Shown: positions 13,920 through 46,929 of the stretch, one piece after another
Layout of the letters: each line of letters starts with the position of its first letter
How positions within the stretch are numbered: the first letter of the stretch is position 1
Assembly: GCA_024277115.1 (NCBI GenBank)
Contig: JAJRVW010000115.1
Coordinates: 1 to 52,896, forward strand
DNA from: Calditrichota bacterium
Lineage (GTDB): Bacteria; Calditrichota; Calditrichia; Calditrichales; J004
Direction: 5' to 3'
Length of the DNA stretch: 52,896 nucleotides
Made by a program: the position numbers and the translations under genes
The notes under the pieces: generated by a model
Database searches by the model: none
Told to the model about the DNA's origin: nothing
The model's input: the letters and a program-made list of their open reading frames with translations, nothing else

Positions 13920-16540
13920 CTACTTTATCATCTGCTTTAATTCGTTTAGTTTTTGCAAGGCCTGCAGCGGCGTAATATTATTAACATCCACACCTTTCAT
14001 TTCTTCCTCAATTTTATTTTTCTGCGGTTTATCAAATAAATTGGTTTGGTTTTTGTTGACCCGGTGCCCTGCCCTGCGTCCTGCCAGCTTAGGTTTTTTG
14101 CTATTGGGCGTAAGTTCATTTGCCTCCAAATTGGAAAGGATTTCCTTAGCGCGTTCGATCAGTTCTGCCGGTAATCCGGCCAGTTGCGCCACATAAATAC
14201 CGTAACTGTTATCCGTGCCCCCTGCTACAATCTTACGCAAAAAGACAACCTGGTCTTCCCACTCTTCCACGGCCACATTATAATTATGGATGCGCGGATA
14301 CAAAAGCGCCAACTCGGTCAGTTCATGGTAATGTGTGGCAAATAATGTTTTGGAACGGATTTCCGTATTATTGTGGATATATTCCACCACCGACCAGGCA
14401 ATGGACAGCCCGTCAAAAGTTGATGTGCCCCGCCCGATCTCATCGAGCAAAATAAGGCTTTTAGGCGTGGCATTATTTAAAATATTGGCCGTTTCGTTCA
14501 TCTCTACCAAAAAGGTACTTTCACCAAGCGCCAGATTATCGGATGCACCGACCCGGGTGAAAATCCGGTCCACAATGCCGATCTTTGCTTTTTTGGCCGG
14601 TACAAAACTCCCGATCTGCGCCATAAGCACAATCAAGCCAACCTGTCTTAAAAAGGTCGATTTACCGGACATATTCGGCCCGGTGATAATCCAAACCTGC
14701 TGGTCGTCCGTATCGAGGCGGGTATCATTGTCTATAAAATCACTTCCCGGCGGTAAGTTTTTCTCGACTACCGGATGCCGTCCTTCGGTGATTTGCAGCT
14801 CCCGGCCATCGGAAACCTGCGGTTTGATATAATTATTTTCATAAGCGGCCATGGCGAAGCTGCACAGGCAATCGATCTCAGAAACCAACACACTGTTCTG
14901 CTGGATTTCTTTGGTAAAACCGCCCACTTTTTCGCGGATGTCCTGAAAAATTTTATACTCAATTGTGTTGATTTTATCTTCTGCGCCAAGGATTTTCTCT
15001 TCCCATTCTTTCAATTCCGGCGTGATGTAGCGCTCGGCATTGACCAGCGTTTGTTTGCGGATATAGTAATCGGGCGCCTTGCCTTTATGCACATTGGTTA
15101 CTTCCAGATAGTAACCAAAAACCTTGTTATAACTAATCTTAAGAGAAGATATGCCCGTTGCCTCCCGCTCCTTTTGCTGATAATTGAGCAGCCAGTCTTT
15201 ACCGTGCTCGGCAATATCGCGCAGCTCGTCCAGCTCCTTATCAAACCCCGGTTTAATCAACCCACCTTCTTTTAAGGTTGTGGGCGGTGTTTCCACAATG
15301 GCCGCTTCGATCTCACTTTTCAGGTTTTCCAGAACATCGATCTGTTTAACAATCTTTGCTAAATTTTTAAATGGCTTTTGTGCCAGAAGATTTTTGATCG
15401 GTTCCAGCACGGCAAGAGAGCTTTTCAGATTGATCACATCACGCCCGTTGGCGCGCCCGGTAACAATCTTGCCCAGCAAGCGCTCCATATCAAAAACAGA
15501 ACCCAGTAAATTTGCAAGTTCATCACGCTCATTTTTGCCTTTATGAGCTCTTCAACACTTTTTTGGCGGGATTCGATCTCTGCCTTGGAGAGCAAAGGGT
15601 GCTGCAACCATTGTTTCATCATACGCCCGCCCATAGCTGTGACGGTGTGGTCTAAAACAGAAAGTAAGGTGGCCGTTTTGGATTGGTCCTGATTGGATTG
15701 GGCGATTTCCAGGTTACGGCGTGTGCTCTCGTCCAACACCATAAAATCCGACAAATTGAGCACTTTTAGGCTGACAAAATGCTCCAGTCGTGTTTTATAA
15801 TTTTCATTTATATAATGGATGACAGCCCCGGCAGCGCACACGCCCTTATCCATATCATCGCATCCAAAACCTTTAAGCGAATGCGATTTAAAATGATTGA
15901 CCAGGTTCTCGTAGGCGTAATCGCGGTTATAAACCCAATCTTCCCTTTTGGTGATAATGGCGTTGAGCCGGTTCTGGATCAGCGTCTCCACAAACTCAAA
16001 ATCTTTATTGGCGACAAGGATTTCGCGCGGTTGATAGCGCACCAGGTTATCCAGCAAATAATTAGTGGGGAACTCGGCCAAAAGAAAAGTACCCGTGGAA
16101 ACATCGGCTACAGAAATGCCACAGATATTGTCATCAAAAGTAAGCGCCAGCAAAAAATTATTGGCTTTGCTGTCCAGGATTTTATCGCTTAAAGTCGCAC
16201 CCGGTGAAGCGATCTCCACTACTTCGCGCTTTACGATCCCTTTGGCCAGCTTGGGGTCTTCCACCTGCTCGCAAATAGCCACGCGCAACCCGGCGTTAAG
16301 CAACTTAGGCAGGTAATTATCCAACGCGTGATAGGGGAAGCCGGCCAGCGGCACCTCGGCGGATTTACCATGTGCCCGCTTGGTGAGGGCGATACCGATT
16401 GTTTTGGCAATGGTCTTGGCGTCATCGTAAAAGGTTTCGTAAAAATCGCCCATGCGGTAAAGCAGCAGAACATTTTTGTACTCGGCCTTTATATTGAGGT
16501 ATTGCTCCATTAAGGGCGTGGTGGCTTGCTTTTTTGACAT
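13920..16540 (-). pseudogene. mutS: DNA mismatch repair ATPase MutS, broken by one missing A
   Basis: Joined length about 873 residues, normal for MutS. N-terminal mismatch-binding domain with the Phe-x-Glu motif (YRMGDFYETFYDDAK), connector and lever domains, then the ABC-type ATPase: Walker A TGPNMSGKSTFLRQVG, Walker B LILLDEIGRGTSTFDGLS, and HYHELTELA. The reading frame from 16540 goes out of phase at 15532-15536. There the five A's of GCAAAAATGAG would have to be six to give AKNERDELANLLGSVFDMERLLG and continue into the second frame, open to 13920. Both halves are otherwise fully conserved. If real, the cell lacks the core of mismatch repair; otherwise it is a homopolymer read error. A start at the internal TTG/ATG near 15488 would make only a truncated ATPase half. 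Confidence 0.92.
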
Positions 16541-31425: not shown

Positions 31426-32487
31426 CTATTGTAAAATAGTCGAAACAACCAGCTCAGGCTTTATATCGGCAAGGCATTTATACTTTTCCTTCCCGCTATA
31501 TTCGCAGCTAATTGACGAATTAGTCGATTTAAAAGGATACATCAAGCACGGACTGCAAGACAAGCCTAAATGGATTGATACACCAAGTTCACCAAAAGGG
31601 GCTGTTCGTGTTGGATGTGCCGGCCCGGTAATCGCAAAGCTTTTTGTATCCATTGCCACTGCAATATGCCCCAATCCTGAGTCACTTGTTAGAAACATCT
31701 CACACTTTTCAATTATACTGGCTACATTATTTAGATCAGCTTCCTCAACATGATGAATATCCCGTGGCTGCGCAAGGAAATCATCACGTATTGATTTATC
31801 GTCCGGCCCGAAAAAGAAGAGAGGCGCAATACCTTTTTCCTGAGCCATACGGGCGACCTGAAGATAATTTTCCAATGGCCACCGTTTGTATGTTTGCCCC
31901 TCATTACAGCCCGGATGAATTCCGAGAATCTTTTTGTCTTTTATATTCAGGTCTGATAAAAAACCATCTGCAAATTTCTTATTTTGTGGCGAGGTTGAAA
32001 ATGTAACCTTCGGGTTCTCTGGGATGGGAATATTAAATGGTTGCAATAAATTTAAATTCTGATAAACATCGTGAAGGGACTCATCGAGATTAATTTTTAT
32101 ATTTGATAGAAAGCTTCGGGTTTTAAACGGGTTGGTTTTATAGCGATGGATAACACGGTCGGGCGTTCCCGTCCGGTAAGCAATTTTATTATAATTTGGC
32201 CGATTGGACGGGAACAGCGTTATAATACTGTCATATTTTCCATGTAAAGTTTTTAAAAATAATTTTCTATCCTCACGTCCTTTGGGCAGGATCAAGCAAT
32301 TGTTTACACGCCCATCGTATTTAAAAACAGTGGCCATAGCTTTCGTCCTGAATAAAATATCCACTTTAAACTCCGGCCTTTCAAGAAATGCATTAATTGT
32401 GGGCGTTTGTAAAATCGCATTGCCGATTCCTGATCCACAATAAAAAAGGATTCTAGTTCCTGAATCTTTTATTTTAACTTTTTTCAC
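31426..32487 (-). CDS. Glycosyltransferase family 9 (heptosyltransferase-like)
   Basis: 353 residues. Rossmann-type GT-B fold: ILFYCGSGIGNAILQTPTINA at the N terminus, KILGIHPGCNEGQTYKRWPL in the middle and FLTSDSGLGHIAVAMDTKSFAITGPAHPTRTAPFG, matching the nucleotide-heptose-binding blocks of WaaC/WaaF-like enzymes. Probably adds a heptose or related sugar to a surface glycan. Starts with GTG and overlaps the end of the upstream glycerophosphotransferase-like gene by 14 bases, so it belongs to that operon. Donor sugar unknown. Confidence 0.88.
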   Translation of the reverse strand: MKKVKIKDSGTRILFYCGSGIGNAILQTPTINAFLERPEFKVDILFRTKAMATVFKYDGRVNNCLILPKGREDRKLFLKTLHGKYDSIITLFPSNRPNYNKIAYRTGTPDRVIHRYKTNPFKTRSFLSNIKINLDESLHDVYQNLNLLQPFNIPIPENPKVTFSTSPQNKKFADGFLSDLNIKDKKILGIHPGCNEGQTYKRWPLENYLQVARMAQEKGIAPLFFFGPDDKSIRDDFLAQPRDIHHVEEADLNNVASIIEKCEMFLTSDSGLGHIAVAMDTKSFAITGPAHPTRTAPFGELGVSIHLGLSCSPCLMYPFKSTNSSISCEYSGKEKYKCLADIKPELVVSTILQ

Positions 32488-33616
32488 TATGTAACAACTC
32501 CGTTATTGCGCTTGCTGCCCTGATAGAGGCGGGTGTGTCTGAAATATCCATATACTCAGGTATCCGGTCTTTTTGTAACTGTGCGAATGGGTTTTTAGTA
32601 AGTGCCGCATTGAACGCTTCTTCAAACTCGCTTTTAGAATTTACCACAGTGCCCATCTCCCAAAAACGATAGTATAAATTGTCCTTCCAATTTGCATTAT
32701 GCGCATTGAGGAAAATACACGGACGGGGCTTAAGCGATACAAACTCGTAAACCAGGCTACTCACATCGCCGATATAAATATCGGATATTTTGATATAACT
32801 ATTGTCCGAACTGTATGGGCTACCAAAATCAATATGAATATTATCACTTTCATGTTCACTAAAATTTAAATCATACTTATAATGCGTTTTCCAATGTTTT
32901 AATAAAATATGAGGGGCAAATATCAAGTTATATTGTTTATTTTTTTGAAAAAATTCTATGATATATTTTGAATAAGATTTATATGAGCTAAACCTGGGCT
33001 GCCAATGTGGGTTGTACAATACAATTGGGTTGTCGTTATTAAAAAGTTTATTTTTTATATCTTCAACTTTTACAGGCACGTCAAATTTGGGATAGCCAAT
33101 TACCTTTACCTGTTTTTCGGAAGTAATCTTTTTGTCCAACATGATATTTCTGTGATAATGCCCTCCAACCAATACTAAATCAAATTCGCCAAAAACTGGA
33201 TCGAATGAATATGCCCTGTCACCACAACCATGTTTCATAATTACAAGCTTTGGATCGGTAATTTTATACTTAGTTGCCATTGTTCCCAATCCATGAGAAG
33301 TCGTCACCAAAATATCAGCATTCTTGATATATTTTTTTGCCTTTTTCAACATGGCATTTACAGAGGGATGGCTCTTCTTTTTAAAATTTAAATACTTATA
33401 TTTAAAAGTTTGTGGCAACTCGATAATTTTTACGCGTGAACATATATATTTGTCCTTTATTTTTTCCAGGACCTCTGTATGCTCATGGTTGCACGAGATT
33501 AAAACAACATTTATATCTCTGTTCATACAAGAGAACTCCATGGCAGTTGTTACACTGTGATAGAGTTGGTGCAGGCCATATAAATACAAAAAAACTACTG
33601 TCTTCTCAGATGTCAT
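32474..33616 (-). CDS. CDP-glycerol glycerophosphotransferase-like protein (TagB/TagF family) 1
   Basis: 380 residues. GT-B-like fold of the CDP-glycerol:glycerophosphate transferase family: VIMKHGCGDRAYSFD, VLYNPHWQPRFSSYKSY, and the C-terminal ISDIYIGDVSSLVYEFVSLKPRPCIFLN block that corresponds to the 'D.SS..fe...l.kP' nucleotide-binding signature of TagF. Expected to transfer glycerol phosphate, or another polyol phosphate, from CDP-glycerol to a lipid-linked glycan on the cytoplasmic side. Lies between LicD and GT9 on the same strand. A second family member is at 34406-35473. Confidence 0.8.
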   Translation of the reverse strand: MTSEKTVVFLYLYGLHQLYHSVTTAMEFSCMNRDINVVLISCNHEHTEVLEKIKDKYICSRVKIIELPQTFKYKYLNFKKKSHPSVNAMLKKAKKYIKNADILVTTSHGLGTMATKYKITDPKLVIMKHGCGDRAYSFDPVFGEFDLVLVGGHYHRNIMLDKKITSEKQVKVIGYPKFDVPVKVEDIKNKLFNNDNPIVLYNPHWQPRFSSYKSYSKYIIEFFQKNKQYNLIFAPHILLKHWKTHYKYDLNFSEHESDNIHIDFGSPYSSDNSYIKISDIYIGDVSSLVYEFVSLKPRPCIFLNAHNANWKDNLYYRFWEMGTVVNSKSEFEEAFNAALTKNPFAQLQKDRIPEYMDISDTPASIRAASAITELLHSEKS

Positions 33617-33680
33617 CGGCTTTTATACTTTTTATTGGGTGAATATAATCTTGATAGGGGATAATATATCTAAATTTCGT

Positions 33681-34337
33681 TCACCAAAAAATCACCCTTT
33701 GAAATACTTTCTTGAATATGTTTTCTTTTTTGAAGTGATAAATATCCTGTGTACAATTATCACTGCTTCTAAAATCCCACCCTTCTTTTACTGGTGTTTT
33801 CCAGTCTCCATAAACATAGCGAAGGTACGCATTATAATCTTTGGGAACCGTATATTTTTTACCACGGAAAGTTATTTGCGCCCTTTTTGCATGAAAATTT
33901 TTGGGCGTAGTTTTAAGATAGGATTTATTTCCGCCTACAACATAACTTAGCGCATCCTTATATTCTTTCTTTACAAAAACATCCATCAGCGAATGTTTTG
34001 CAAAAAAGAGTAGAAGACGTTCCTGTATTTTTATGATCCGTATGTCCCCTTTTTTATATGGCCCGGTATCCCGTTTAAAATAATACACTCTAAGGCGATA
34101 CCCTGCGCGCCATAATTTCCATTTTAATTTGAGAAGTTTATCGACCTGATCATCGGTAATGCTAATATCAAGATCGGTATCCCACGGTAAAAGGCGGTCT
34201 TCGCGGATTATGCCAAGTAATGTCCCAAAATCCAAAACATATTCTACATTGTTTTCTTCAAGTATTGCAGTCGTGGTTTCTAACATTTTCAAGGCAGCGT
34301 TCGCAACCTTTCCTGTTAATGGCTTTTGCCCGGGCAT
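33681..34337 (-). CDS. LicD family phosphotransferase
   Basis: 218 residues. The nucleotidyltransferase-like LicD/fukutin signature is clear: VLDFGTLLGIIREDRLLPWDTDLDISI, with the metal-binding D-x-D pair in DTDLDISI. LicD enzymes move phosphocholine, glycerol phosphate, ribitol phosphate or similar groups from a CDP donor onto a glycan. Slightly shorter than typical LicD (about 260-270). Flanked by two CDP-glycerol transferase-like genes and next to the CDP-glycerol-making enzyme, so glycerol phosphate is a sensible guess for the group transferred. Confidence 0.88.
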   Translation of the reverse strand: MPGQKPLTGKVANAALKMLETTTAILEENNVEYVLDFGTLLGIIREDRLLPWDTDLDISITDDQVDKLLKLKWKLWRAGYRLRVYYFKRDTGPYKKGDIRIIKIQERLLLFFAKHSLMDVFVKKEYKDALSYVVGGNKSYLKTTPKNFHAKRAQITFRGKKYTVPKDYNAYLRYVYGDWKTPVKEGWDFRSSDNCTQDIYHFKKENIFKKVFQRVIFW

Positions 34338-34405
34338 TTATTTTCTTTCTTCATTAAAGTTTGTATTTAATTTTATAGGAATTTAACACGGAATCTGTGA
34401 GACAA

Positions 34406-35473
34406 TCAGCGCAGGTAACCTTTTTTAAACCAGCTGTGATAGATAATTTGTGCTTTACGAAACAAATTAACCGGTTTGCCTTTTATTGGAAATTGGTGCG
34501 CTTGTTTAACAGTGGCGAGATAATTTATAATATTCTCACTGATTTTGCCATCCAATGCGGGGTTAATCTCTGCTAAATGTTTATGGCGGTTCTCTTTAAA
34601 TTCTTCAGGGTTTTGCAAACATTTATCAAGGGCAGGTCTCAATTCCTTTACATCCAAAATATTCAAGCCTTTATCCTCCCGGCCTTGCGTCCGAAATGTT
34701 ACCACCGGCTTGTCCAATGCCATAAACTCATAAACCACGGAGGAAGTATCGGAAACCATCACATCCGCGGCGTGAAGATACGGGGTAATCTCCACATTTT
34801 GCAAAACTTTACCTTTATGCGGGGCAATATTTTTAAACCTTTTTATACATTCGGCATCCATCAACTCATGAAATTTGAACAACCAAAACTCATCATCTTT
34901 TATTATTTTGGGGATTATATCTAATAATTCTGTTGCAGATTCGTGTTTCGAACTGAAAGTGGGCGCATACAAAATAATTTTTTTCCCCGATGGCAAGTCC
35001 AGGTTTTTGATATCCTGTTTTGGATAATTGAGGATATAATCAATTTTAGGCCAGCCTGTTTCCAATATTAGGAAATAGGGGTTCTTTTCCTGCATTTCTT
35101 TAAAACGCTTTGTTACATAAGGGCCGGATGTTAAATAAATATCAAAAAAGTGGCGGATTTTAAAATGGGCTTCTTTCTCTATCCCTAGTCCATGAAATAG
35201 TTGTACTTTTATTCCGGGAATTCTAAAATCAACAAAATTACCGGAACACAATACAAAATCGGCATTAAATTTTTTTGCAGAATTTAAAGTAGACAGGATT
35301 TTGCCACGGTCCCATTCTTTAGGGAAATTGTTTTTAACTTTTTGCGACACATAAAAAGCATACGCCTGCCCGGTCCTTTTCAGATGTTCCTCTATGGGAA
35401 TAAATATGGGGATTGAGTAATTTTTAGCGATATAAAAGATGAATTTATTTTGAGATGGGTTTCCGACGGACAT
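34406..35473 (-). CDS. CDP-glycerol glycerophosphotransferase-like protein (TagB/TagF family) 2
   Basis: 355 residues. Family blocks VQLFHGLGIEKEAHFKIRH (conserved His-Gly), KKIILYAPTFSSKHES and HAADVMVSDTSSVVYEFMALDKPVVTFRT. Like its paralogue it should use CDP-glycerol at the inner face of the membrane; one of the two could prime and the other polymerise, as TagB and TagF do in teichoic acid synthesis. Gene order and spacing (48 bases after the cytidylyltransferase stop) place it in the same operon. Confidence 0.85.
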   Translation of the reverse strand: MSVGNPSQNKFIFYIAKNYSIPIFIPIEEHLKRTGQAYAFYVSQKVKNNFPKEWDRGKILSTLNSAKKFNADFVLCSGNFVDFRIPGIKVQLFHGLGIEKEAHFKIRHFFDIYLTSGPYVTKRFKEMQEKNPYFLILETGWPKIDYILNYPKQDIKNLDLPSGKKIILYAPTFSSKHESATELLDIIPKIIKDDEFWLFKFHELMDAECIKRFKNIAPHKGKVLQNVEITPYLHAADVMVSDTSSVVYEFMALDKPVVTFRTQGREDKGLNILDVKELRPALDKCLQNPEEFKENRHKHLAEINPALDGKISENIINYLATVKQAHQFPIKGKPVNLFRKAQIIYHSWFKKGYLR

Positions 35474-35520
35474 AATTTAAAATATTTGTAGTGATGCTTT
35501 AAATGGGGCAATAATTCCTG

Positions 35521-35928
35521 TTATTTTGCCATGTTGGTTTTTTTATTCTTTATTTCGTGTTTTATTTGCGTGGTCGAGATACCATCTGTCCGGTCGAGAT
35601 AAACCACCTCGCACAGTTCGATGAGTTCATCAAATTTTCCCTGCCAGTCCGCCCCCATCACCAAAATGTCGATATTATATTTTTTAACATCCTTTTTCTT
35701 TTGCTCCCAGGCATCTTCACGGATTACCTCATCTACATATTTTATGGCCTCTACAATCTGTTTGCGGTGCTCAAAAGGATAAACACATTTTTTCCCTTTT
35801 ATTGCATTAAACTCGTCTGAAGAAACGGCCACTACTAAATAATCACCGAGGTTTTTTGCCCTCTCAAGAATGCGTAAGTGTCCAAGATGGAATAGATCAA
35901 ATGTACCGTACGTAATTATTTTTTTCAT
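35521..35928 (-). CDS. tagD: Glycerol-3-phosphate cytidylyltransferase
   Basis: 135 residues. Nucleotidyltransferase signature ITYGTFDLFHLGHLRILERAK with the HxGH motif, VVAVSSDEFNAIKGKK, and C-terminal YLDRTDGISTTQIK (RTDGISTT is typical of TagD/GCT). Reaction: glycerol 3-phosphate plus CTP to CDP-glycerol, the donor for the two neighbouring transferase-like enzymes. I start at ATG 35928 because family proteins begin at this strand; an in-frame TTG six codons earlier is less likely. Confidence 0.92.
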   Translation of the reverse strand: MKKIITYGTFDLFHLGHLRILERAKNLGDYLVVAVSSDEFNAIKGKKCVYPFEHRKQIVEAIKYVDEVIREDAWEQKKKDVKKYNIDILVMGADWQGKFDELIELCEVVYLDRTDGISTTQIKHEIKNKKTNMAK

Positions 35929-36103
35929 ATTGCCCAAGTGTTTCAATTTAGTTTTTTAAAATTATCTTCCGGCCAAACGGATACAAAACCTTTAGGCGGC
36001 AACTATAAAGCAAAACTTTTAATTTACAAAATAATGCTCATATTTACAATTGAAATAAGACGATTTGGCAACGAAGGAAATCTAATAACATCAGCCTTTT
36101 TGC

Positions 36104-37273
36104 CTAACCATGGATGGTAAAAAATTGCTTAACACGGGTAAGGATGGCCGGGAAAACCCGTTTTATTTCCAGAAATATTTCTTTATAGGTTTCTTCAAAA
36201 AATATAGGATCGTGGCCGATGGGGTCGGCAATGGAAGGAATGAAAAGCGACTTTTCCCTTTTCCACTGCTTTAAGAGTATAAATTTATTTTTATGTTGCG
36301 GGTAGTTTTTTAGCAGAAATTTGTAATGATTCTGGGCCAGGCAAAAAATCAATTCGGATTCACGAACTATTTTGTCATTAATTGGCTGCGAAAAATGTTT
36401 TGTCAGGTCTACCTCATTTTTACGGCTAACATCAATGGCAAAATCATGCGCCTGTGATTTTGGTAAATTTAAAGTCCCTGCGCTCTGTACTTTAATCTGA
36501 TGCCGGTACTTGGTCTTGCTGATCATCTTTTTCAGGATCGCCTCACCTATCGGCGACCTGCATATATTGCCGGAACAGACAAAAGTGATAACAAACTTTT
36601 CCTTTTTTGAGACAATTTTTTTACTGCCCAGGTGGTCAAGCAATTCTGTTTCCGTAACGTCGCCCTGGCGGGAAATAATATAGGGGACCTTCGTCATATC
36701 AATTATTGTAGAGCCCTTTGACTTAGGAATTGGCCCACCGTCTAAAATAAGGTCCAACTCCGTCCCAAAATGGGCAATCACATTTTCGATTGAAAATACA
36801 TTCTCCATCCCGGAGATATTTGCGCTGGTTGCACTTATGGGCGAGTCAAACAAATATACGAGGGCGCGGCTGACCTTGTCCGAAGGAATCCGTATGCCCA
36901 CTTTCTCCAAATAGGTACCCGGTTTTTTTACATTTTCAAAAATGGGCACTTTTTTTTGCAGACTGTTATTTATGATACATGTTATCCTGCCGGGAAGGAT
37001 TTTTTCCAAATCTTCTTTTATTGATGGTGGAGAAAAACCGAAAATCTCTTTAATCTGCTGGATCGAGTTTAATAAAATTGAAACAGGCCGGCGCATATCC
37101 CTTTGCTTGACCATGTATAATTTATTAACAGCTTCCCGATTATACGCATCTACGCCCAGGCCATACAATGTATCTGTGGGATAAACGATAAGCCCGCCCC
37201 TTTCCAGGCATTCCGCGGCTTTCTTAATTATTTTTGGGTCGGGATTTTCCCGATCAATTTTATAATATTTCAT
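36104..37273 (-). CDS. Threonylcarbamoyl-AMP synthase fused to low-molecular-weight phosphotyrosine phosphatase
   Basis: 389 residues, two domains. Residues about 1-215: TsaC/YrdC/Sua5 fold (GGLIVYPTDTLYGLGVDAYN, KQRDMRRPVSILL, SATSANISG, GSTIIDMT), which makes threonylcarbamoyl-AMP for the universal t6A tRNA modification. Residues about 225-389: LMW-PTP fold with the P-loop VCSGNICRSP (nucleophile Cys, Arg) and a DP acid region near SIADPIGHDP. The phosphatase half resembles Wzb/YwlE types. Since it sits among surface-polysaccharide genes, a role in tyrosine or arginine dephosphorylation linked to that pathway is possible but unproven. Such fusions occur elsewhere in bacteria. Confidence 0.9.
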   Translation of the reverse strand: MKYYKIDRENPDPKIIKKAAECLERGGLIVYPTDTLYGLGVDAYNREAVNKLYMVKQRDMRRPVSILLNSIQQIKEIFGFSPPSIKEDLEKILPGRITCIINNSLQKKVPIFENVKKPGTYLEKVGIRIPSDKVSRALVYLFDSPISATSANISGMENVFSIENVIAHFGTELDLILDGGPIPKSKGSTIIDMTKVPYIISRQGDVTETELLDHLGSKKIVSKKEKFVITFVCSGNICRSPIGEAILKKMISKTKYRHQIKVQSAGTLNLPKSQAHDFAIDVSRKNEVDLTKHFSQPINDKIVRESELIFCLAQNHYKFLLKNYPQHKNKFILLKQWKREKSLFIPSIADPIGHDPIFFEETYKEIFLEIKRVFPAILTRVKQFFTIHG

Positions 37274-38700: not shown

Positions 38701-39972
38701 TTATCCAATTTTTTTTGTGCCACGCAAATACGGATGTAATACTTCCGGAATTGAAATGCTACCATCTTCATTTTGATAATGTTCCAACAAAGAAACCATT
38801 AAACGTGAAGTGGCCAATCCCGATCCATTTAAAGTGTGGACAAATTCCGTTTTACCACCCTGTGCAGGCTTAAAACGGATATTAGACCGTCGTGCCTGGA
38901 ACGAATCAAAATTACTTACGCTGGATGTTTCCAACCATTTATTATCAGCCGTCGACCATGTTTCGATATCATAACATTTACCCGCGGCAAAACTAATATC
39001 ACCGCTGCACAACAAAAGTATGCGATACGGCAAATCCAAGAGCTCAAGTATTTCAGTAGCTTCTCTCAGCATTTGTTCATGATATTCTTCCGACTTATCC
39101 GGGTGTACAAAATTAACCATTTCCACCTTATTAAATTGATGAACCCTTTGGAAGCCCCGTGTATCTTTGCCATACGACCCTGCTTCCCTGCGGAAACAGG
39201 CTGAATAGGCCACATACTTTATAGGTAGTTCACTTTCGGAGATTGTTTCGTTGCGATGTAAATTTGTTACAGGTACCTCTGCCGTAGGGATCAGGAATAA
39301 ATCATCCTTGGTGGCCAGGTACATATCGTCTTCCATTTTTGGCAATTGGCCGGTGCCATACATGCTATCACGATTTACAATAAAGGGTGGTAAAATTTCG
39401 GTATATCCGTGATTCTCAATATGCAGGTCCAACATAAAATTGATCAGCGCCCTTTCCAGTTGCGCACCCTTGCCCTTGTAAACGGCAAACCCACTTCCAC
39501 TAATCTTTCCACCGCGCTTAAAATCTAAAATGTCATGCATCTCGCCTAATTCAAGATGGTCCTTTGCTTTAAATGTAAAATTTGGCTTCTCGCCCCACTC
39601 TCCAACCGTTTCATTAAAAGACTCATCCCGGCCGATAGGCGTTGTTTTATGCGGCAAATTTGGGATCCGACTCAACTCATCAAAAGTTTCTTTTTCGATT
39701 TTGTGAACCTGGGCATCCAATTCTTTTATTTTAATTGAAATTTCTTTGGTTATCGCGATCAACTCTGACGCATCTTTTTTCTCTTTTTTATATTGCGCGA
39801 CTTTTGCGGAATTTTCATTTCTTTGCCGTTTCAGGTTCTCAACTTCATAGATTATATCTCTGCGTTTCTGATCATTCTCAAGGATAAAATCGCTATTTCC
39901 TTTTTCATTTTTATTGTTAATTGCTTCTTTAACAAGTTCAGGGTTTTCCCTTAAAAATTTTACATCAATCAT
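38701..39972 (-). CDS. serS: Seryl-tRNA synthetase
   Basis: 423 residues, normal length. N-terminal coiled-coil arm (MIDVKFLRENPELVKEAI ... QRNENSAKVAQYKKEKK), then the class II core: motif 2 YSACFRREAGSYGKDTRGFQRVHQFNKVEM and motif 3 LNGSGLATSRLMVSLLEHYQ. Charges tRNA-Ser (and tRNA-Sec where present). It heads a minus-strand gene series plsC-upp-tsaC and faces away from the small gene at 40302. No T-box seen upstream. Confidence 0.97.
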   Translation of the reverse strand: MIDVKFLRENPELVKEAINNKNEKGNSDFILENDQKRRDIIYEVENLKRQRNENSAKVAQYKKEKKDASELIAITKEISIKIKELDAQVHKIEKETFDELSRIPNLPHKTTPIGRDESFNETVGEWGEKPNFTFKAKDHLELGEMHDILDFKRGGKISGSGFAVYKGKGAQLERALINFMLDLHIENHGYTEILPPFIVNRDSMYGTGQLPKMEDDMYLATKDDLFLIPTAEVPVTNLHRNETISESELPIKYVAYSACFRREAGSYGKDTRGFQRVHQFNKVEMVNFVHPDKSEEYHEQMLREATEILELLDLPYRILLLCSGDISFAAGKCYDIETWSTADNKWLETSSVSNFDSFQARRSNIRFKPAQGGKTEFVHTLNGSGLATSRLMVSLLEHYQNEDGSISIPEVLHPYLRGTKKIG

Positions 39973-40591: not shown

Positions 40592-42697
40592 TTATTTCTT
40601 ATCTTGGAGAAAAGCTGTGACGAGAAGTTCAACATCAAGAAAAACAGATTGGTTTTTTAGATAATGAAGTTCATATATCTCGTGCATTTGTTCATTCTCA
40701 ATCTTGTGGGAATTGATTTGTATAATACCTGTGAGCCCGGGTTTATACTCAAATTTTGATGATTGTAATTTATCCAAATAAACAGGTGCACCAACAAATG
40801 AGAGCTGTCCCCTCCAAACATTTACCAGGTTAAGGAAAAAACGGAATGTACCCGCCCTTGGGCTTGTAAATATTTTATATTTTTTTAGGCCTGTCATCAC
40901 AAACTGTTTTTTTATTTCCTTTCGCCAAACTAAAAGCTGCATAAGAAAAACAGGGCTTCCTATAATTAGTATCACAGTCGAGACGATCCAATCAAAAACC
41001 CGTTTTACAAATCGGTTAAAAATTCTCCCATACGCATAGTCAATATCAACAAGTGCTACGGAGTCCAAACGCTCGATGTTAGATTTGCCAACCATGAACT
41101 CCAAGTGTCCCGGAACCATTTTAAACTCAACCTGTGTATTTTGCAGGCTGGTCATTGTTGAAAAAACGGCTTCATACGAAATATTATGGGTAGAGAAAAT
41201 AATCATGTCTATTTTTTTTAAGCGGACAAATTCTTCGAGTTGATCAAGTGACGTGACAAATAAAAACCCGCCGACTTTATCACCAATCTGCTCACGATTT
41301 GCAGCTACCAAACCCAAAATATCCATGCCCACTTCCGGCAAGTGCTTCAGTTTGTCTAATAACTTTTTAGTCTCGTTATCTTCCCCAACAATCAAAGTTT
41401 TTTTGCGGATAAATTCTTTACCTAATGCACTGGAATATTTGGAGGCATATTTATTAAAAAAGACACGCCAGCCGATCATCAAAACACTGCTTGCAATGGC
41501 AGCAATCAAAACGACAAAGCGAGAGAAAGCAAATTGGTTAAAAAAGAATGTAAGGGCAGCTACAAACAAAAAAGTGGAAATTAGAACTTTAAAAACCTTT
41601 TCCGGTTGAAAACGGTCTTTTTTACTTAGGTCAAAAAACAATGCGCTGATAAAATAAATAACAGAGGTAATGACATTTATTACAATATATTTTGAAAAAA
41701 AATCATCCAGCAAAAAGGCATGTTTTAGTTTGTACCGTACAAAAAAACTCAAAAACAAAACCGTGTTTAACACAAGTAGATCGAGTAATAACGGGTAATA
41801 TTTTTTTACAGAATTCTTTGTATAGATAACGATTCCACGAAAAATAACACCCAGTAAAATAAACCATTTAAAGGGATAAAAATATTTTTGCTGGTAATGT
41901 TTTTTATAAAACTGATACAGCGAACGGTTAAACGTGATTACATAATCCAGGTTATTTGCTTTACTACTTTCACCCTTATAATGTACAATCTGCGTGTCCG
42001 GTACATAATAAATCTTGCCGCCCTGTAGATTAATGCGGTGGCAATAATCAATATCCTCACAATACATAAAAAAAGTTTCGTCCAGCAAGCCAATCTTATC
42101 AACAACCTCTTTTTTGATCATCATAAACGAGCCGGAAACAGCCTCGACAGGATACGTTTCATCTTCATCCAGATAGGTTAAATTATAGCGGCCAAATATT
42201 TTACTTTTGGGAAAAACCTTATTGAGGCCGATCAGTTTCCAAAATGCTGTAGAAGGCGTGGGTATACTATGTCGGCAATCTATTGAAAATGTGCCGTCCG
42301 GGTTTAAAATTTTGCAGGTTGCCGCCGAGGCCTCAGGCGTTCTTACAAAAAACTCAAGCAATTTGTAAAAGGTATCTTCCTGCACCAATGTATCGGGGTT
42401 AAGAAGAACAATGAACTCGCCAACAGCTTTAGTTAATGCAAGATTGTTACCACCTGAAAAACCAAGGTTCTCTTTGCTGGCAATAACCTGCACATCTTTA
42501 AAACGGCTCTTTAGCATCTGCACCGAGCCATCGATGGAATTATTATCTACAACAATTACCTCGGAAGGGATTCCTTTTAAAGCCCTGTTTACAGATTCCA
42601 ATGCCTGTTCCAAAAAGGCTTTGACATTGTAATTAACAATGATAATGGAAATTTTTATTGGTTCTTTTTTCATACAATTTGAGTTAGGAAACGACAT
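40592..42697 (-). CDS. Fusion of GT2 glycosyltransferase and degenerate polyprenyl phosphoglycosyl-transferase domain
   Basis: 701 residues. Residues about 12-250: GT2 domain of the rhamnosyltransferase type (ISIIIVNYNVKAFL, VIVVDNNSIDGS, NLGFSGGNNLAL, LLNPDT, FMYCEDIDYCHRI). Residues about 290-400: four hydrophobic segments. About 430-540: CoA-binding-3-like domain (KTLIVGEDNETKKLLDKL). About 560-701: bacterial sugar transferase fold (RVFDWIVSTVILIIGSPVF ... LSFVGAPVY ... YKPGLTGIIQI). In the last domain the catalytic Asp-Glu of 'SLDELPQL' is replaced by Arg619-Phe620 (TFRFFLNLVNVW), so it is probably not an active phosphoglycosyl transferase. The GT2 part looks intact. AAAAGGA before the ATG, 10 bases after the WecA-fusion gene. 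Confidence 0.85.
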   Translation of the reverse strand: MSFPNSNCMKKEPIKISIIIVNYNVKAFLEQALESVNRALKGIPSEVIVVDNNSIDGSVQMLKSRFKDVQVIASKENLGFSGGNNLALTKAVGEFIVLLNPDTLVQEDTFYKLLEFFVRTPEASAATCKILNPDGTFSIDCRHSIPTPSTAFWKLIGLNKVFPKSKIFGRYNLTYLDEDETYPVEAVSGSFMMIKKEVVDKIGLLDETFFMYCEDIDYCHRINLQGGKIYYVPDTQIVHYKGESSKANNLDYVITFNRSLYQFYKKHYQQKYFYPFKWFILLGVIFRGIVIYTKNSVKKYYPLLLDLLVLNTVLFLSFFVRYKLKHAFLLDDFFSKYIVINVITSVIYFISALFFDLSKKDRFQPEKVFKVLISTFLFVAALTFFFNQFAFSRFVVLIAAIASSVLMIGWRVFFNKYASKYSSALGKEFIRKKTLIVGEDNETKKLLDKLKHLPEVGMDILGLVAANREQIGDKVGGFLFVTSLDQLEEFVRLKKIDMIIFSTHNISYEAVFSTMTSLQNTQVEFKMVPGHLEFMVGKSNIERLDSVALVDIDYAYGRIFNRFVKRVFDWIVSTVILIIGSPVFLMQLLVWRKEIKKQFVMTGLKKYKIFTSPRAGTFRFFLNLVNVWRGQLSFVGAPVYLDKLQSSKFEYKPGLTGIIQINSHKIENEQMHEIYELHYLKNQSVFLDVELLVTAFLQDKK

Positions 42698-42707
42698 GCT
42701 TTTCCTT

Positions 42708-45152
42708 TTAAAACTTATTGGTCAATATAATAAACAACGATCGCAATAATATCCTAAAATCAAAGGTAAGCGACATATTCTCAAGATAAAATAAATCTTG
42801 TTTGTATTGCTCTCTCTTTGATTTTAAGGAATCATCATATCTATATTTTACCTGCGCCCAACCAGTAAGCCCTGGCCGGATTTGAAAACGCCGGTTATAA
42901 AAGCGGATTTTTTCGCTGTTTTCTGAGACGATTTCCGGTGGTTCAGGACGTGGCCCCACAAAACTCATTTTGCCAATAAGTATGTTAACCAGCTCGGGAA
43001 ATTTATACAAATTACTTTTGTAAAGCATTTGCTGGATTGTGGAGTTTTTATCCAAAACATTAAAATTTAGCATCCCGAATATTTGTGCGTTCTTTCCCAC
43101 GCTGTTCACAATATTTAAGCGTGGGTTTGCACCGCTAATAAGTAAAATAAAATATATTAAAATGCCAAGTGGTAAAAATACCAGAAGCAGGATAATGGAA
43201 AAAATAACGTCAAATGTACGCTTAAGCAACCATTGCCACAGGTGCATGTGGTCAGGAAACAGGCGTATCAAAGGATGCCCAATCACCTCTTCTGTTTTAT
43301 GGCCGGAAACGACATCATAAAACTGTGGGATAATCTTAAAAACAACCTTCATATTTTTTACCGAGGCAATGATCGACAATATTTCATCGCGTGATCGTTC
43401 GTATATGGCGATTATAACTTCCATAACGCCGTAGGAGCGAATAATTTCCGGGATATCATCGTATGAGCCCAGGGATTTTAAATCACTGAAATTTTCTTTT
43501 TGCCCCTCTTTGCTCACAAAGCCGATCACATTATAAAGTAAGTGGCGGTTTTTTCGGATATCTTTTAAAAGCTTACGTGATTTTTCCGTTGCGCCAATCA
43601 ATAAAGTATTTTGCGGGGCGTATTCCAAAATGGAAAACTTTTTCTCCAGGCCAATGACCAATAAACGCCCTAAATTTACAAACCCTATTAACAAAATCGC
43701 ATAGAGCACAATAGTCAACCGGCTTTGGGAAATAATATGGTCATTATCCCAGGTGGCAATAAAAAATATTAAAATGCCAAACAAGATTGTTTTGCTTATG
43801 CGGCGCGCCTTATCGAAACGCGATATATCCCAGCGCATCGTGTATAGATCGTTTAATACAAATAAAATCAACCAGGTTAATGTAACCATTAGCAGCGGTT
43901 GCAGAGATAAAATCTCCTCAAAAGTTTGGGTCGTTGTTGCCATTAATCCAAACTTAAAACGTATCCAAATAAAAACGACCATCGAGAGGTTTAAGGTGAT
44001 AATATCACTTACGCCTAAAAGAATGCGGTGTAAAAACCGTTTGATTGAAAGCGGCGCCAGTTCATTTTCTACAAGGAACGAGGCGTGATCCCCATAAACC
44101 GTTTTACCTTTTCGCGCCTCCAGGTACCCCAACCTTTTTAAGCCTAAAACTGAAAATGCTATGGAAATGATCAGCATAACAAAACCAAGTATCTGGATAT
44201 TTAACGCCATTAACAGCGCTGTAAGCCCGTAGGCAAAAGAGAGCATATAAATGATCTGTACGGCTTGTTTGTGGGTAAGGCCAAGATAAATAAGGCGATG
44301 GTGCAGATGGTCTTTATCGGGCTTAAAGGGATGTTTGCCTTTGTTTAGCCGCCGAAAAAATGAAACGGCCGTATCGCCAATCGGGATGGCCAACGCGATT
44401 AGTGGCAATAGCATGGCAATTTTACTTGAGCTGTTTTCAAATGATTTTAAACTCAGAGTCGCCAAAATAAAACCTAAAAAAAGTGAGCCTGTATCGCCCA
44501 TAAAAATCGAGGCCGGATGATAATTATAACGTAAAAAACCCAGGATAGCCCCGGCAAGAGCAATCCCAAAAAGGACGCCGGTAATATTGCCGGTAACAAA
44601 CCCCATGGTTATCAAAACCAGCGAAACAATAAAACTAACGCCCGCCGCGAGGCCATCTAACCCATCCAATAAGTTTACCGCATTTGTTACGCCGATAATC
44701 CATAAATAGGTGATGGGAATACCCATAATGCCCAGGGGCAAATCGGGGCCAAAAGGATTGACAATTACATCAATGGTACAACCGGATAAAATGACCAGCG
44801 AAGCGGCAATTATTTGTCCCAAAAATTTTTGTGGCGCATTTAACCCTTTAAAATCATCATAAACGCCGATGACCACGATTAAAAGCGTACCCAAAAGGAT
44901 GAAGAAATAATGTGTGTTGATACTGTCAGCAGGAAATAGAAAATAACTAAGAAGAAGGCCCGCAATAAACCCTGCATAAATGCCAAGTCCGCCCAATCGT
45001 GGCACAAATCCCGTGTGTACCATGCGCGCATCGGGGAAGGAGCCGATTTTATGCTTTACGGCAAGCTGCCGCACATAATATGTAACAATTAAAGCAACAC
45101 CCGCCGAAAGCGCTGCAATTAAAAATAATAATGGAAAAGAAATTTGGACCAA
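42708..45152 (-). CDS. Fusion of WecA/MraY-type phosphoglycosyl transferase and degenerate sugar-transferase domain
   Basis: 814 residues. Residues about 1-330: multi-span WecA-like polyprenyl-phosphate HexNAc-1-phosphate transferase with all key motifs: GVYDDFKGL (Asp-Asp), NAVNLLDGLDGLAAG, FMGDTGSLFLGF and KDHLHHRLIYLG. Residues about 375-490: four more hydrophobic segments. About 500-620: CoA-binding-3-like domain (NTLLIGATEKSRKLLKDI). About 635-814: bacterial sugar transferase fold (LLKRTFDVIFSIILLLVFLP, MSFVGPRPEPPE, PGLTGWAQVKYRYDD). Here the catalytic pair of 'SLDELPQL' is Tyr716-Lys717 (SNLYKFPELVNIL), so this second transferase is probably dead. Thus the protein likely primes undecaprenyl phosphate through its N-terminal half, in the inner membrane. 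Confidence 0.87.
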   Translation of the reverse strand: MVQISFPLLFLIAALSAGVALIVTYYVRQLAVKHKIGSFPDARMVHTGFVPRLGGLGIYAGFIAGLLLSYFLFPADSINTHYFFILLGTLLIVVIGVYDDFKGLNAPQKFLGQIIAASLVILSGCTIDVIVNPFGPDLPLGIMGIPITYLWIIGVTNAVNLLDGLDGLAAGVSFIVSLVLITMGFVTGNITGVLFGIALAGAILGFLRYNYHPASIFMGDTGSLFLGFILATLSLKSFENSSSKIAMLLPLIALAIPIGDTAVSFFRRLNKGKHPFKPDKDHLHHRLIYLGLTHKQAVQIIYMLSFAYGLTALLMALNIQILGFVMLIISIAFSVLGLKRLGYLEARKGKTVYGDHASFLVENELAPLSIKRFLHRILLGVSDIITLNLSMVVFIWIRFKFGLMATTTQTFEEILSLQPLLMVTLTWLILFVLNDLYTMRWDISRFDKARRISKTILFGILIFFIATWDNDHIISQSRLTIVLYAILLIGFVNLGRLLVIGLEKKFSILEYAPQNTLLIGATEKSRKLLKDIRKNRHLLYNVIGFVSKEGQKENFSDLKSLGSYDDIPEIIRSYGVMEVIIAIYERSRDEILSIIASVKNMKVVFKIIPQFYDVVSGHKTEEVIGHPLIRLFPDHMHLWQWLLKRTFDVIFSIILLLVFLPLGILIYFILLISGANPRLNIVNSVGKNAQIFGMLNFNVLDKNSTIQQMLYKSNLYKFPELVNILIGKMSFVGPRPEPPEIVSENSEKIRFYNRRFQIRPGLTGWAQVKYRYDDSLKSKREQYKQDLFYLENMSLTFDFRILLRSLFIILTNKF

Positions 45153-45228: not shown

Positions 45229-46929
45229 TCAATAATTAAACAAAAAACCAAAATGGAATTCATTGCGTTTTTTACGGATATTTTTGTTCTCTGTATTGAC
45301 CCAAATATACGAAGCAGAGAGATATAAATCGTTAAAAACTTCGTATTGCAAATAGAGCTTTGTTGAGAGCGTGGTCGTTAAATCACCTTCAAGAAAAGTG
45401 CGTGTCTCTTTTGGTACCTCCTGGCCAAAGCCTAAAATATTCCGCCCCGTCAGTAAATCACCTCCCACATTCAGGCTGTCTGGATTGGCGCCTTTTTTAA
45501 AGCGCATTACCTGAACGCCAGCTTTTAAACGGGCATGAAACTCTTTCATCAGATGGAAATAAAACACCTCGGAGTTTGGCCCGGCCCAATGGCCAAGCGA
45601 GCGGCCATCCGATTCGTAACGGTTTATTTTAAATTTGTGCGTGTACACCCAGGGCATGATCGCAGAATATTCCATACGCAGCTCCAGGTTTGGCAACCCA
45701 AATGGATCGGCAATATGAAAACCGCTCTGAATAGCCTGCTTATTGCCCCACCAGTTTGTCCCCAGCTTTTCAAATTTCATCTCATCGAGAAAAACGGTGG
45801 TATATAATTTTAACCCGTTTACAGGGATGTATTCAAAATCCAAAGAAATGGTGGCATTGTCACGGTCGCGTAATTTATGCTGTGCCGCGCGGTAAAAATT
45901 AAATGGGATCAGATAAGCCCAGTCGGCATAGCGGTTGCCATAGATAAAAACCTCGTTCAGTCCAATAGTAAAATTGCCCCAGAGCGCTATTTCCAGCCGG
46001 TGCGCCGCCACCCATTTATCCGGATAAAAACGGCTGCCATCACTTAAACTATCCGATTGGAACGACTGCAATTTGCCATGCATGGCCGTAAACTTGCCCC
46101 AGCCCCAATCTTTGGAAATTTGCAAATAAGGGTACTGCTCGGGATAATTGGATAGAATCAATTTCCCGGATTCGCCCTGCCCCCAACTGATTTCCTGCTG
46201 TGCAAAAACTATATCCATATATTTTGTGTGCCAGGCCAGTTCACCGCCGGTTCGGTCTGTAAAAACAATGTCCCCTGTCTCGCTTTCCTGACGGAACCCA
46301 TTTTTTATGATCGGGTCCTGCTCGCGGTAACCTTCATCGCCACGGATACCCTGTAAACTGATCTTAACCTGGTAGGCAAAATCATTTTCGATGGTTCCCC
46401 TAAAAATATAGGACTGCTCGTTGGCATTACGGCTTAAATTATCCGAGCGGCCGTCAAATGTAAAAAGCTGCTCATAATCAAAATAAAAATTGTCCGCGCC
46501 CTCTTCCCACACAACCACGTGGTTTTCTTCTTCCGGGTATTTTTGGTTCAAAACACGCCAGAAATCATTTTTAAAATTTTGCCAGCCCGCCAATGTGCTG
46601 TACCAAGATTTATTTGCCGGAATAAGCGCGTGTTTCTTTTCCCTGGAAATTTCAAACCTGAAATCAAGCAAAAAATCATCCAGCTTTCGTTTATCGATGG
46701 AAGTTAAACTTTCCCTCCGGGCAAGTAGTTTTTGCAGGAAGCCCGCAACGCGCGCACGACTATAAGGCTTTACACCATCCAAAAGGTTTTCAACTTCGCC
46801 CAATGTTTCCATCCGTTCTAAAAAACCATACACAGGATGATTGAGCGGGACGGATGCCGGATTTTGGGCAAATATGTTTTGCCCGGCTGTAAGAAAAACA
46901 AGAAACAATAGGATATTTTTTATTTTCAT
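45229..46929 (-). CDS. Wzi-like outer-membrane capsule-assembly barrel protein
   Basis: 566 residues. Signal peptide (about 1-21, ending FAQ), then a helical N-terminal domain (HPVYGFLERMETLGEVENLL ... PYSRARVAGFLQKLL) and a large beta-barrel of alternating aromatic strands: ISWGQGESGKLILSNYPEQY, WAAHRLEIALWGNFTIGLNE, YADWAYLIPFNFYRA, ending FHFGFLFNY. This is the Caps_assemb_Wzi family layout; in E. coli Wzi is an outer-membrane lectin that holds group 1 capsule on the cell. Heads the operon of the two fusion transferases (76-base gap), linking them to a surface polymer. Confidence 0.85.
   Translation of the reverse strand: MKIKNILLFLVFLTAGQNIFAQNPASVPLNHPVYGFLERMETLGEVENLLDGVKPYSRARVAGFLQKLLARRESLTSIDKRKLDDFLLDFRFEISREKKHALIPANKSWYSTLAGWQNFKNDFWRVLNQKYPEEENHVVVWEEGADNFYFDYEQLFTFDGRSDNLSRNANEQSYIFRGTIENDFAYQVKISLQGIRGDEGYREQDPIIKNGFRQESETGDIVFTDRTGGELAWHTKYMDIVFAQQEISWGQGESGKLILSNYPEQYPYLQISKDWGWGKFTAMHGKLQSFQSDSLSDGSRFYPDKWVAAHRLEIALWGNFTIGLNEVFIYGNRYADWAYLIPFNFYRAAQHKLRDRDNATISLDFEYIPVNGLKLYTTVFLDEMKFEKLGTNWWGNKQAIQSGFHIADPFGLPNLELRMEYSAIMPWVYTHKFKINRYESDGRSLGHWAGPNSEVFYFHLMKEFHARLKAGVQVMRFKKGANPDSLNVGGDLLTGRNILGFGQEVPKETRTFLEGDLTTTLSTKLYLQYEVFNDLYLSASYIWVNTENKNIRKKRNEFHFGFLFNY

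Follow-up and report, generated by a model that had tools for sequence, protein, structure and literature searches.

Two transferase fusions on WbaP-like chassis

The window, by which we mean the whole 52,896-nucleotide stretch of Calditrichota DNA that was analysed, carries two adjacent genes, here called A and B, which are separated by about 10 bases; an AAGGA ribosome site precedes A. The features of both genes and of their conserved flanks are collected in Table 1. An initial annotation, made from the letters alone, had proposed that these genes encode neighbouring fusions, each with a dead phosphoglycosyl transferase (PGT) domain next to an intact partner domain. We found both genes in place, and alignment confirmed the replacement of the catalytic dyad in each of them as well as the presence of the WecA and GT2 motifs in the partner domains.

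Table 1. Positions of genes A and B, their domains and their conserved neighbours in the window
Feature	Position	Strand	Basis or remark
Gene A: GT2 fused to large monotopic PGT with shortened, predicted inactive catalytic domain	40592..42697	-	701 aa
A: PF00535 GT2 domain (aa 17-202), NPD intact	42092..42649	-	Pfam
A: four-helix membrane bundle, predicted (aa 297-430)	41408..41809	-	AlphaFold2 model
A: PF13727 (aa 367-529)	41111..41599	-	Pfam
A: junction beta-hairpin, predicted (aa 541-552)	41042..41077	-	AlphaFold2 model
A: degenerate PF02397 (aa 559-696)	40610..41023	-	Pfam and alignment
A: Arg619-Phe620 where Asp-Glu is expected	40838..40843	-	Alignment
Gene B: WecA-type (GT4) PGT fused to complete large monotopic PGT with predicted inactive catalytic domain	42708..45152	-	814 aa; TTG start uncertain
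B: PF00953 WecA core (aa 83-236), D99-D100, NxxN and DGLDG intact	44445..44906	-	Pfam and motifs
B: four-helix membrane bundle, predicted (aa 376-505)	43638..44027	-	AlphaFold2 model
B: PF13727 (CoA_binding_3 / WbaP DUF; aa 435-609)	43326..43850	-	Pfam
B: beta-hairpin, predicted (aa 620-630), at DUF-PGT junction, the position of the WbaP dimer-swap hairpin	43263..43295	-	Model and PMC10942596
B: degenerate PF02397 (aa 644-810)	42723..43223	-	Pfam and alignment
B: Tyr716-Lys717 where catalytic Asp-Glu is expected	43002..43007	-	Alignment
Wzi-like capsule assembly protein (PF14052), conserved just upstream of B	45229..46929	-	Pfam and neighbourhood comparison
serS, within conserved flank B-(A)-serS-plsC, also in another phylum	38701..39972	-	Neighbourhood comparison

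The N-terminal half of B resembles the polytopic PGTs of the WecA/MraY type (PF00953, TIGR02380) in every catalytic motif, with DD and NxxN/DGLDG in the core and HxHH present as HLHH (aa 282-285) directly past PF00953. It differs from these enzymes in its fusion to a large monotopic PGT, and its match to TIGR02380 (133.6 bits) is under the WecA cut-off of 326.05. Protein A shares with rhamnosyltransferase-like GT2 enzymes (TIGR01556) the GT2 domain (84.6 bits for PF00535), the NPD motif and an ED motif at aa 214-215, directly after PF00535, and thereby carries both the DxD-like and the catalytic acidic motif that a GT2 enzyme requires; its TIGR01556 score of 51.8 bits is far under the cut-off of 200.55.

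Both proteins end in a WbaP-like large PGT, composed of four TM helices, PF13727 and PF02397 in that order. The likeness to WbaP and WcaJ (TIGR03025, TIGR03023; structure 8t53) extends over the four-TM bundle, the DUF, the position of the junction hairpin, the reentrant-helix anchor and the PF02397 fold. However, A and B lack the Asp-Glu dyad and the substrate motifs, carry an additional live transferase at the N-terminus, and match TIGR03025 and TIGR03023 under their cut-offs. Members of the PGT superfamily share the Asp-Glu dyad (PMC10519829). In an alignment to intact copies taken from this genome and from the order, 'FRFFLNL' of A (R619-F620) and 'LYKFPEL' of B (Y716-K717) both fall on '[LI]DELPQL'. 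The active-site loop that bears KFR(S/T)M has been lost from A by deletion and is shorter in B, and neither protein of the window retains KFR(S/T)M or QxR. Pfam itself recovers a PF02397 remnant at aa 623-696 of A. The genome of the window encodes two further PF02397 proteins that match the full profile length with more than 220 bits.

The large-PGT halves of A and B were modelled with AlphaFold2 from alignments of the window, a closely similar, full-length relative on a Calditrichaeota contig (L065) and other related loci, giving a mean pLDDT of 77.8 for the A half and 80.8 for the B half. The top structural match of both models is S. enterica WbaP (8t53), although the whole-length superposition is loose (TM 0.34-0.40) and the likeness is one of domain by domain. 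The B model reaches a TM-score of 0.79 against PglC, normalised to target length; the fold of the models is partly imposed, because canonical PGTs were present in their alignments. The junction hairpins of both proteins were predicted at low confidence (pLDDT about 46-65). In WbaP, the DUF hairpin is swapped between the two chains of the dimer (PMC10942596), and EpsZ of Myxococcus, which is without the swap hairpin, requires a partner protein (PMC12802240).

Conservation of the pair and of its degenerate domains in Calditrichota

In a protein search, each of the 21 genomes of the window's order gave matches to B and to A, a few of them with fragments or unfused domains alone, and at strict thresholds the B profile and the A profile each matched 36 of 40 Calditrichota genomes. 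The arrangement is thus a phylum-wide pair, in which A and B are adjacent wherever the contig is long enough to tell. Genes usually follow the order Wzi-B-A, often with GT4, heparinase II/III and DegT genes nearby. The dyad is missing from all sequences that were counted: the B position is occupied by Tyr-Lys in 32 of 33 proteins and by Asn-Arg in the other one, and none of 30 A proteins has Asp-Glu. The L065 contig, which is the same as G015:C128, was left out of these counts to avoid double counting. By comparison, the motifs of the live heads (DD, NxxN, DGLDG and HLHH of WecA; NPD and ED of GT2) are invariant in the Calditrichota sequences that cover them. As a control, a simple motif pattern was applied to PGT relatives on viral contigs; 21 of 25 had an intact DE, one had D-H and one YL, and the pattern did not capture the dyad site in the remaining two. 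We also considered whether the dyad change could be a recent artefact of sequencing or assembly, which its conservation across the phylum rules out.

One genome of the phylum, G005, carries two A-B pairs, on G005:C17 (L010, L037) and on G005:C139 (L026, L056). The pair on G005:C17 is near-identical to that of G017, a member of another family, so that contamination or a recent transfer is possible.

We then compared the residues that are kept and lost in the degenerate domain of B, starting from the positions at which intact B orthologues do not vary. The residues of the anchor and the fold are kept, namely K644, R645, D648, P661, GPRP (G733-E737) and PGxTG (P760-G764), the last within a retained RPGxTG. 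The reentrant helix of PglC has a Lys-Arg motif and a helix-breaking Pro (PMC6133551), which correspond to K644-R645 and P661 of B. In contrast, the substrate set (SxGP, QxR, KFR(S/T)M, R711 and DE) is lost jointly; position 711 aligns to Arg88 of PglC, which is reported to contact undecaprenyl phosphate (PMC10519829). We also looked for a relocated acidic pair by comparing conservation in the dead B domains with that in intact orthologues, and found none: D648, E737, E791 and D798 are the only acidic positions conserved in at least 90% of the dead domains, and they are acidic in the intact orthologues too, E791 in most of them.

For pairs with estimable dS, the dN/dS of the degenerate PGT domain was 0.05-0.17 in B and 0.08-0.16 in A, similar to the live domains, with many of the dS values close to saturation. 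In one very close pair, the B domain had accumulated zero amino-acid changes. Taken together, these comparisons establish, at the level of sequence, that the PGT domains of A and B are catalytically dead and that they are under purifying selection.

Relatives in other phyla and ancestry of the two fusions

A survey of about 250 genomes from other phyla located full-length B-type fusions in two phyla, and a further search within these two recovered them in 2 of 9 genomes of the one and in 16 of 245 of the other. Asp-Glu and the substrate motifs are preserved in the monotopic PGT of all 18 orthologues, and in 14 of them the WecA motifs are intact as well. Given that such two-headed orthologues exist, B probably descends from an ancestor in which two unrelated PGT heads were both live. 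The opposite loss is seen in G496, G499 and G500, three genomes of one other phylum, in which the WecA head is dead (DD to SK, DGLDG to DNIKG, HxHH to QxHN) and the PGT has kept its motifs; a single live head on a full chassis therefore recurs both ways. In one of the other phyla, the B fusion adjoins serS, a class II aldolase gene and plsC as it does in Calditrichota, and this shared serS/plsC gene order supports the orthology of the B fusions. Within the genomes searched, the loss of the B dyad is specific to Calditrichota. In the more distant Calditrichota families, the dead B domain keeps a longer loop and part of KFR(S/T)M, and the dyad substitution therefore probably preceded the loop deletions.

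The A-type proteins outside the phylum have a different record. In six of them PF02397 is present but lacks the dyad, five stop before PF02397, and one, a GT2 fusion in G187, has an intact dyad. In a tree of the large-PGT halves, A and B form separate clades with a support of 100/100, while the placement of some long branches is unsure and the proteins of G187 and G211 fall on the B side. In several phyla, the members of the A clade are either dead or truncated. We also considered the A chassis as a duplicate of the B chassis, and this was rejected by the separate clades; A is accordingly no copy of B, and by the evidence of these well-supported branches the two proteins lost PGT activity independently.

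The initial annotation had taken the parallel loss to suggest one shared, selected arrangement, and that part of it calls for correction, given the independent losses and their unlike spread (several phyla for the A clade, Calditrichota for B). It had also named homologues with an intact Asp-Glu as evidence that would overturn the idea of a dead domain; such homologues do exist outside the phylum, where they date the loss and do not undo it. The full large-PGT chassis, the loss of the substrate motifs and the intact two-headed orthologues elsewhere go beyond what it had noticed.

A-type proteins and B-type large PGTs occur together in seven genomes outside the phylum versus 0.8 expected (Fisher p 8e-7, a value that ignores kinship). 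In the genomes of other phyla in which both types were located (G093, G097 and G084), the two genes are unlinked. G183 and G260 carry an A-type protein without PF02397, and each has a single PF02397 protein in its genome. In a plasmid collection, no fused homologue was found, and no record spans 80% of B in one place.

Three proteins from other phyla (L223 in G176, L224 in G125 and L225 in G087) combine a WecA-type domain with a further membrane and Rossmann-like stretch, without PF02397, and might represent another chassis for a WecA-type head.

A candidate role for the dead modules

We propose that A and B would act as the second-step and the priming enzyme of a surface-polysaccharide pathway that is found throughout Calditrichota. 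The WecA head of B would transfer HexNAc-1-phosphate onto undecaprenyl phosphate, after which the next sugar would be attached by the GT2 head of A. The dead large-PGT modules may have been retained as membrane-anchored dimerisation platforms, most likely joining A and B in a heterodimer that forms as the WbaP homodimer does, within which the lipid-linked sugar would be handed on between the two live heads. We lean towards this coupling of priming to the second sugar as the role of the dead modules; the substrates, the complex and the hand-over are what we infer. The scaffold suggested in the initial annotation gains from the WbaP dimer-type architecture, the purifying selection and the phylum-wide pairing, whereas the complex as such is still a deduction. 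A bridge between A and B is also supported, indirectly, by the adjacency across the phylum, the co-occurrence in other phyla and the pattern in G183 and G260.

A different role for the same modules would be regulation, with the dead PGT and the DUF sensing UMP, UDP-sugars or lipid and tuning the live heads without any bridge between A and B. The DUF of WbaP binds uridine nucleotides and UMP inhibits WbaP (PMC10942596), and PF13727 is retained in A and B together with RPGxTG and GPRP. However, SxGP, QxR, KFR(S/T)M and R711 are gone from the dead B domain, which makes the binding of a nucleotide-sugar there doubtful, and sensing leaves the neighbourhood of A and B unexplained, so that we regard regulation as rather unlikely. 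Somewhat less probable still is that each chassis anchors and dimerises its own head, the architecture reflecting ancestry and the pairing ordinary operon linkage. Large PGTs are homodimers (PMC10942596), A and B could likewise each homodimerise, which speaks against the heterodimer, and the two genes are unlinked outside the phylum where both were located; against separate homodimers stand the adjacency throughout Calditrichota and the joint occurrence of both types in other phyla.

The two remaining explanations seem very improbable. The Tyr-Lys pair might have replaced Asp-Glu with Tyr as the nucleophile and a tyrosine-linked phospho-sugar intermediate, making B a two-headed enzyme with new chemistry, and the pair is indeed conserved more strictly than most neighbouring positions. 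Yet one lineage has Asn-Arg instead, loss or shortening has also affected KFR(S/T)M, QxR, the Arg that contacts undecaprenyl phosphate in PglC (711 here) and the active-site loop, and the acidic Mg2+ site is missing. It is just as hard to credit that the PGT domains are inert leftovers that by chance were never deleted. The active-site loop does shorten stepwise in the window's order and the nearest families, and PF02397 is missing from some A-type proteins of other phyla, but dN/dS is well below 1 and the anchor residues are conserved near-completely across the phylum.

Large PGTs, WecA enzymes, GT2 enzymes and bifunctional monotopic PGTs are already known. Bi-PGTs are described in PMC10942596, citing O'Toole 2021, as a monoPGT core fused to another domain. 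A and B resemble them in that a monotopic PGT is joined to a further enzyme, be it a transferase or another member of the pathway, but differ in that the monotopic PGT is inactive here and that the partner in B is itself a PGT, from the unrelated polytopic class. No report of a PGT pseudoenzyme was found in the papers searched. Within those papers, a polytopic-monotopic PGT fusion, the loss of either head depending on the lineage, and a dead pair conserved throughout a phylum appear to be new, and an earlier mention of such a polytopic-monotopic fusion is possible.

In the usual account, one PGT initiates a polysaccharide and separate glycosyltransferases then take over. In the present case, one chain unites two unrelated types of PGT, lineages have silenced one or the other head and retained the chassis, and the neighbouring GT2 has a dead chassis of its own. 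If the bridging is true, catalytically dead PGTs would serve as parts of an assembly in which the first step is coupled to the second. The pair offers a natural separation of the structural and the catalytic roles of the large-PGT fold, and it cautions that the presence of PF02397 alone is insufficient to annotate an active primer.

Other features of the window were recorded in passing. At 13920-16540 (-), two open frames overlap, one of 368 aa and, immediately downstream of it, one of 522 aa with MutS domains III-V, which may reflect a frame-shift in mutS or a mis-assembly. A teichoic-acid-like set occupies 32474-35946 (-) and comprises a TagD-type glycerol-3-phosphate cytidylyltransferase, two CDP-glycerol glycerophosphotransferase-like proteins and a LicD protein. 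A protein encoded at 36104-37273 (-) combines Sua5/YrdC, of tRNA threonylcarbamoyladenosine synthesis, with a low-molecular-weight protein phosphatase (PF01300 and PF01451), and a protein resembling this fusion is present in G020, a genome of the same genus.
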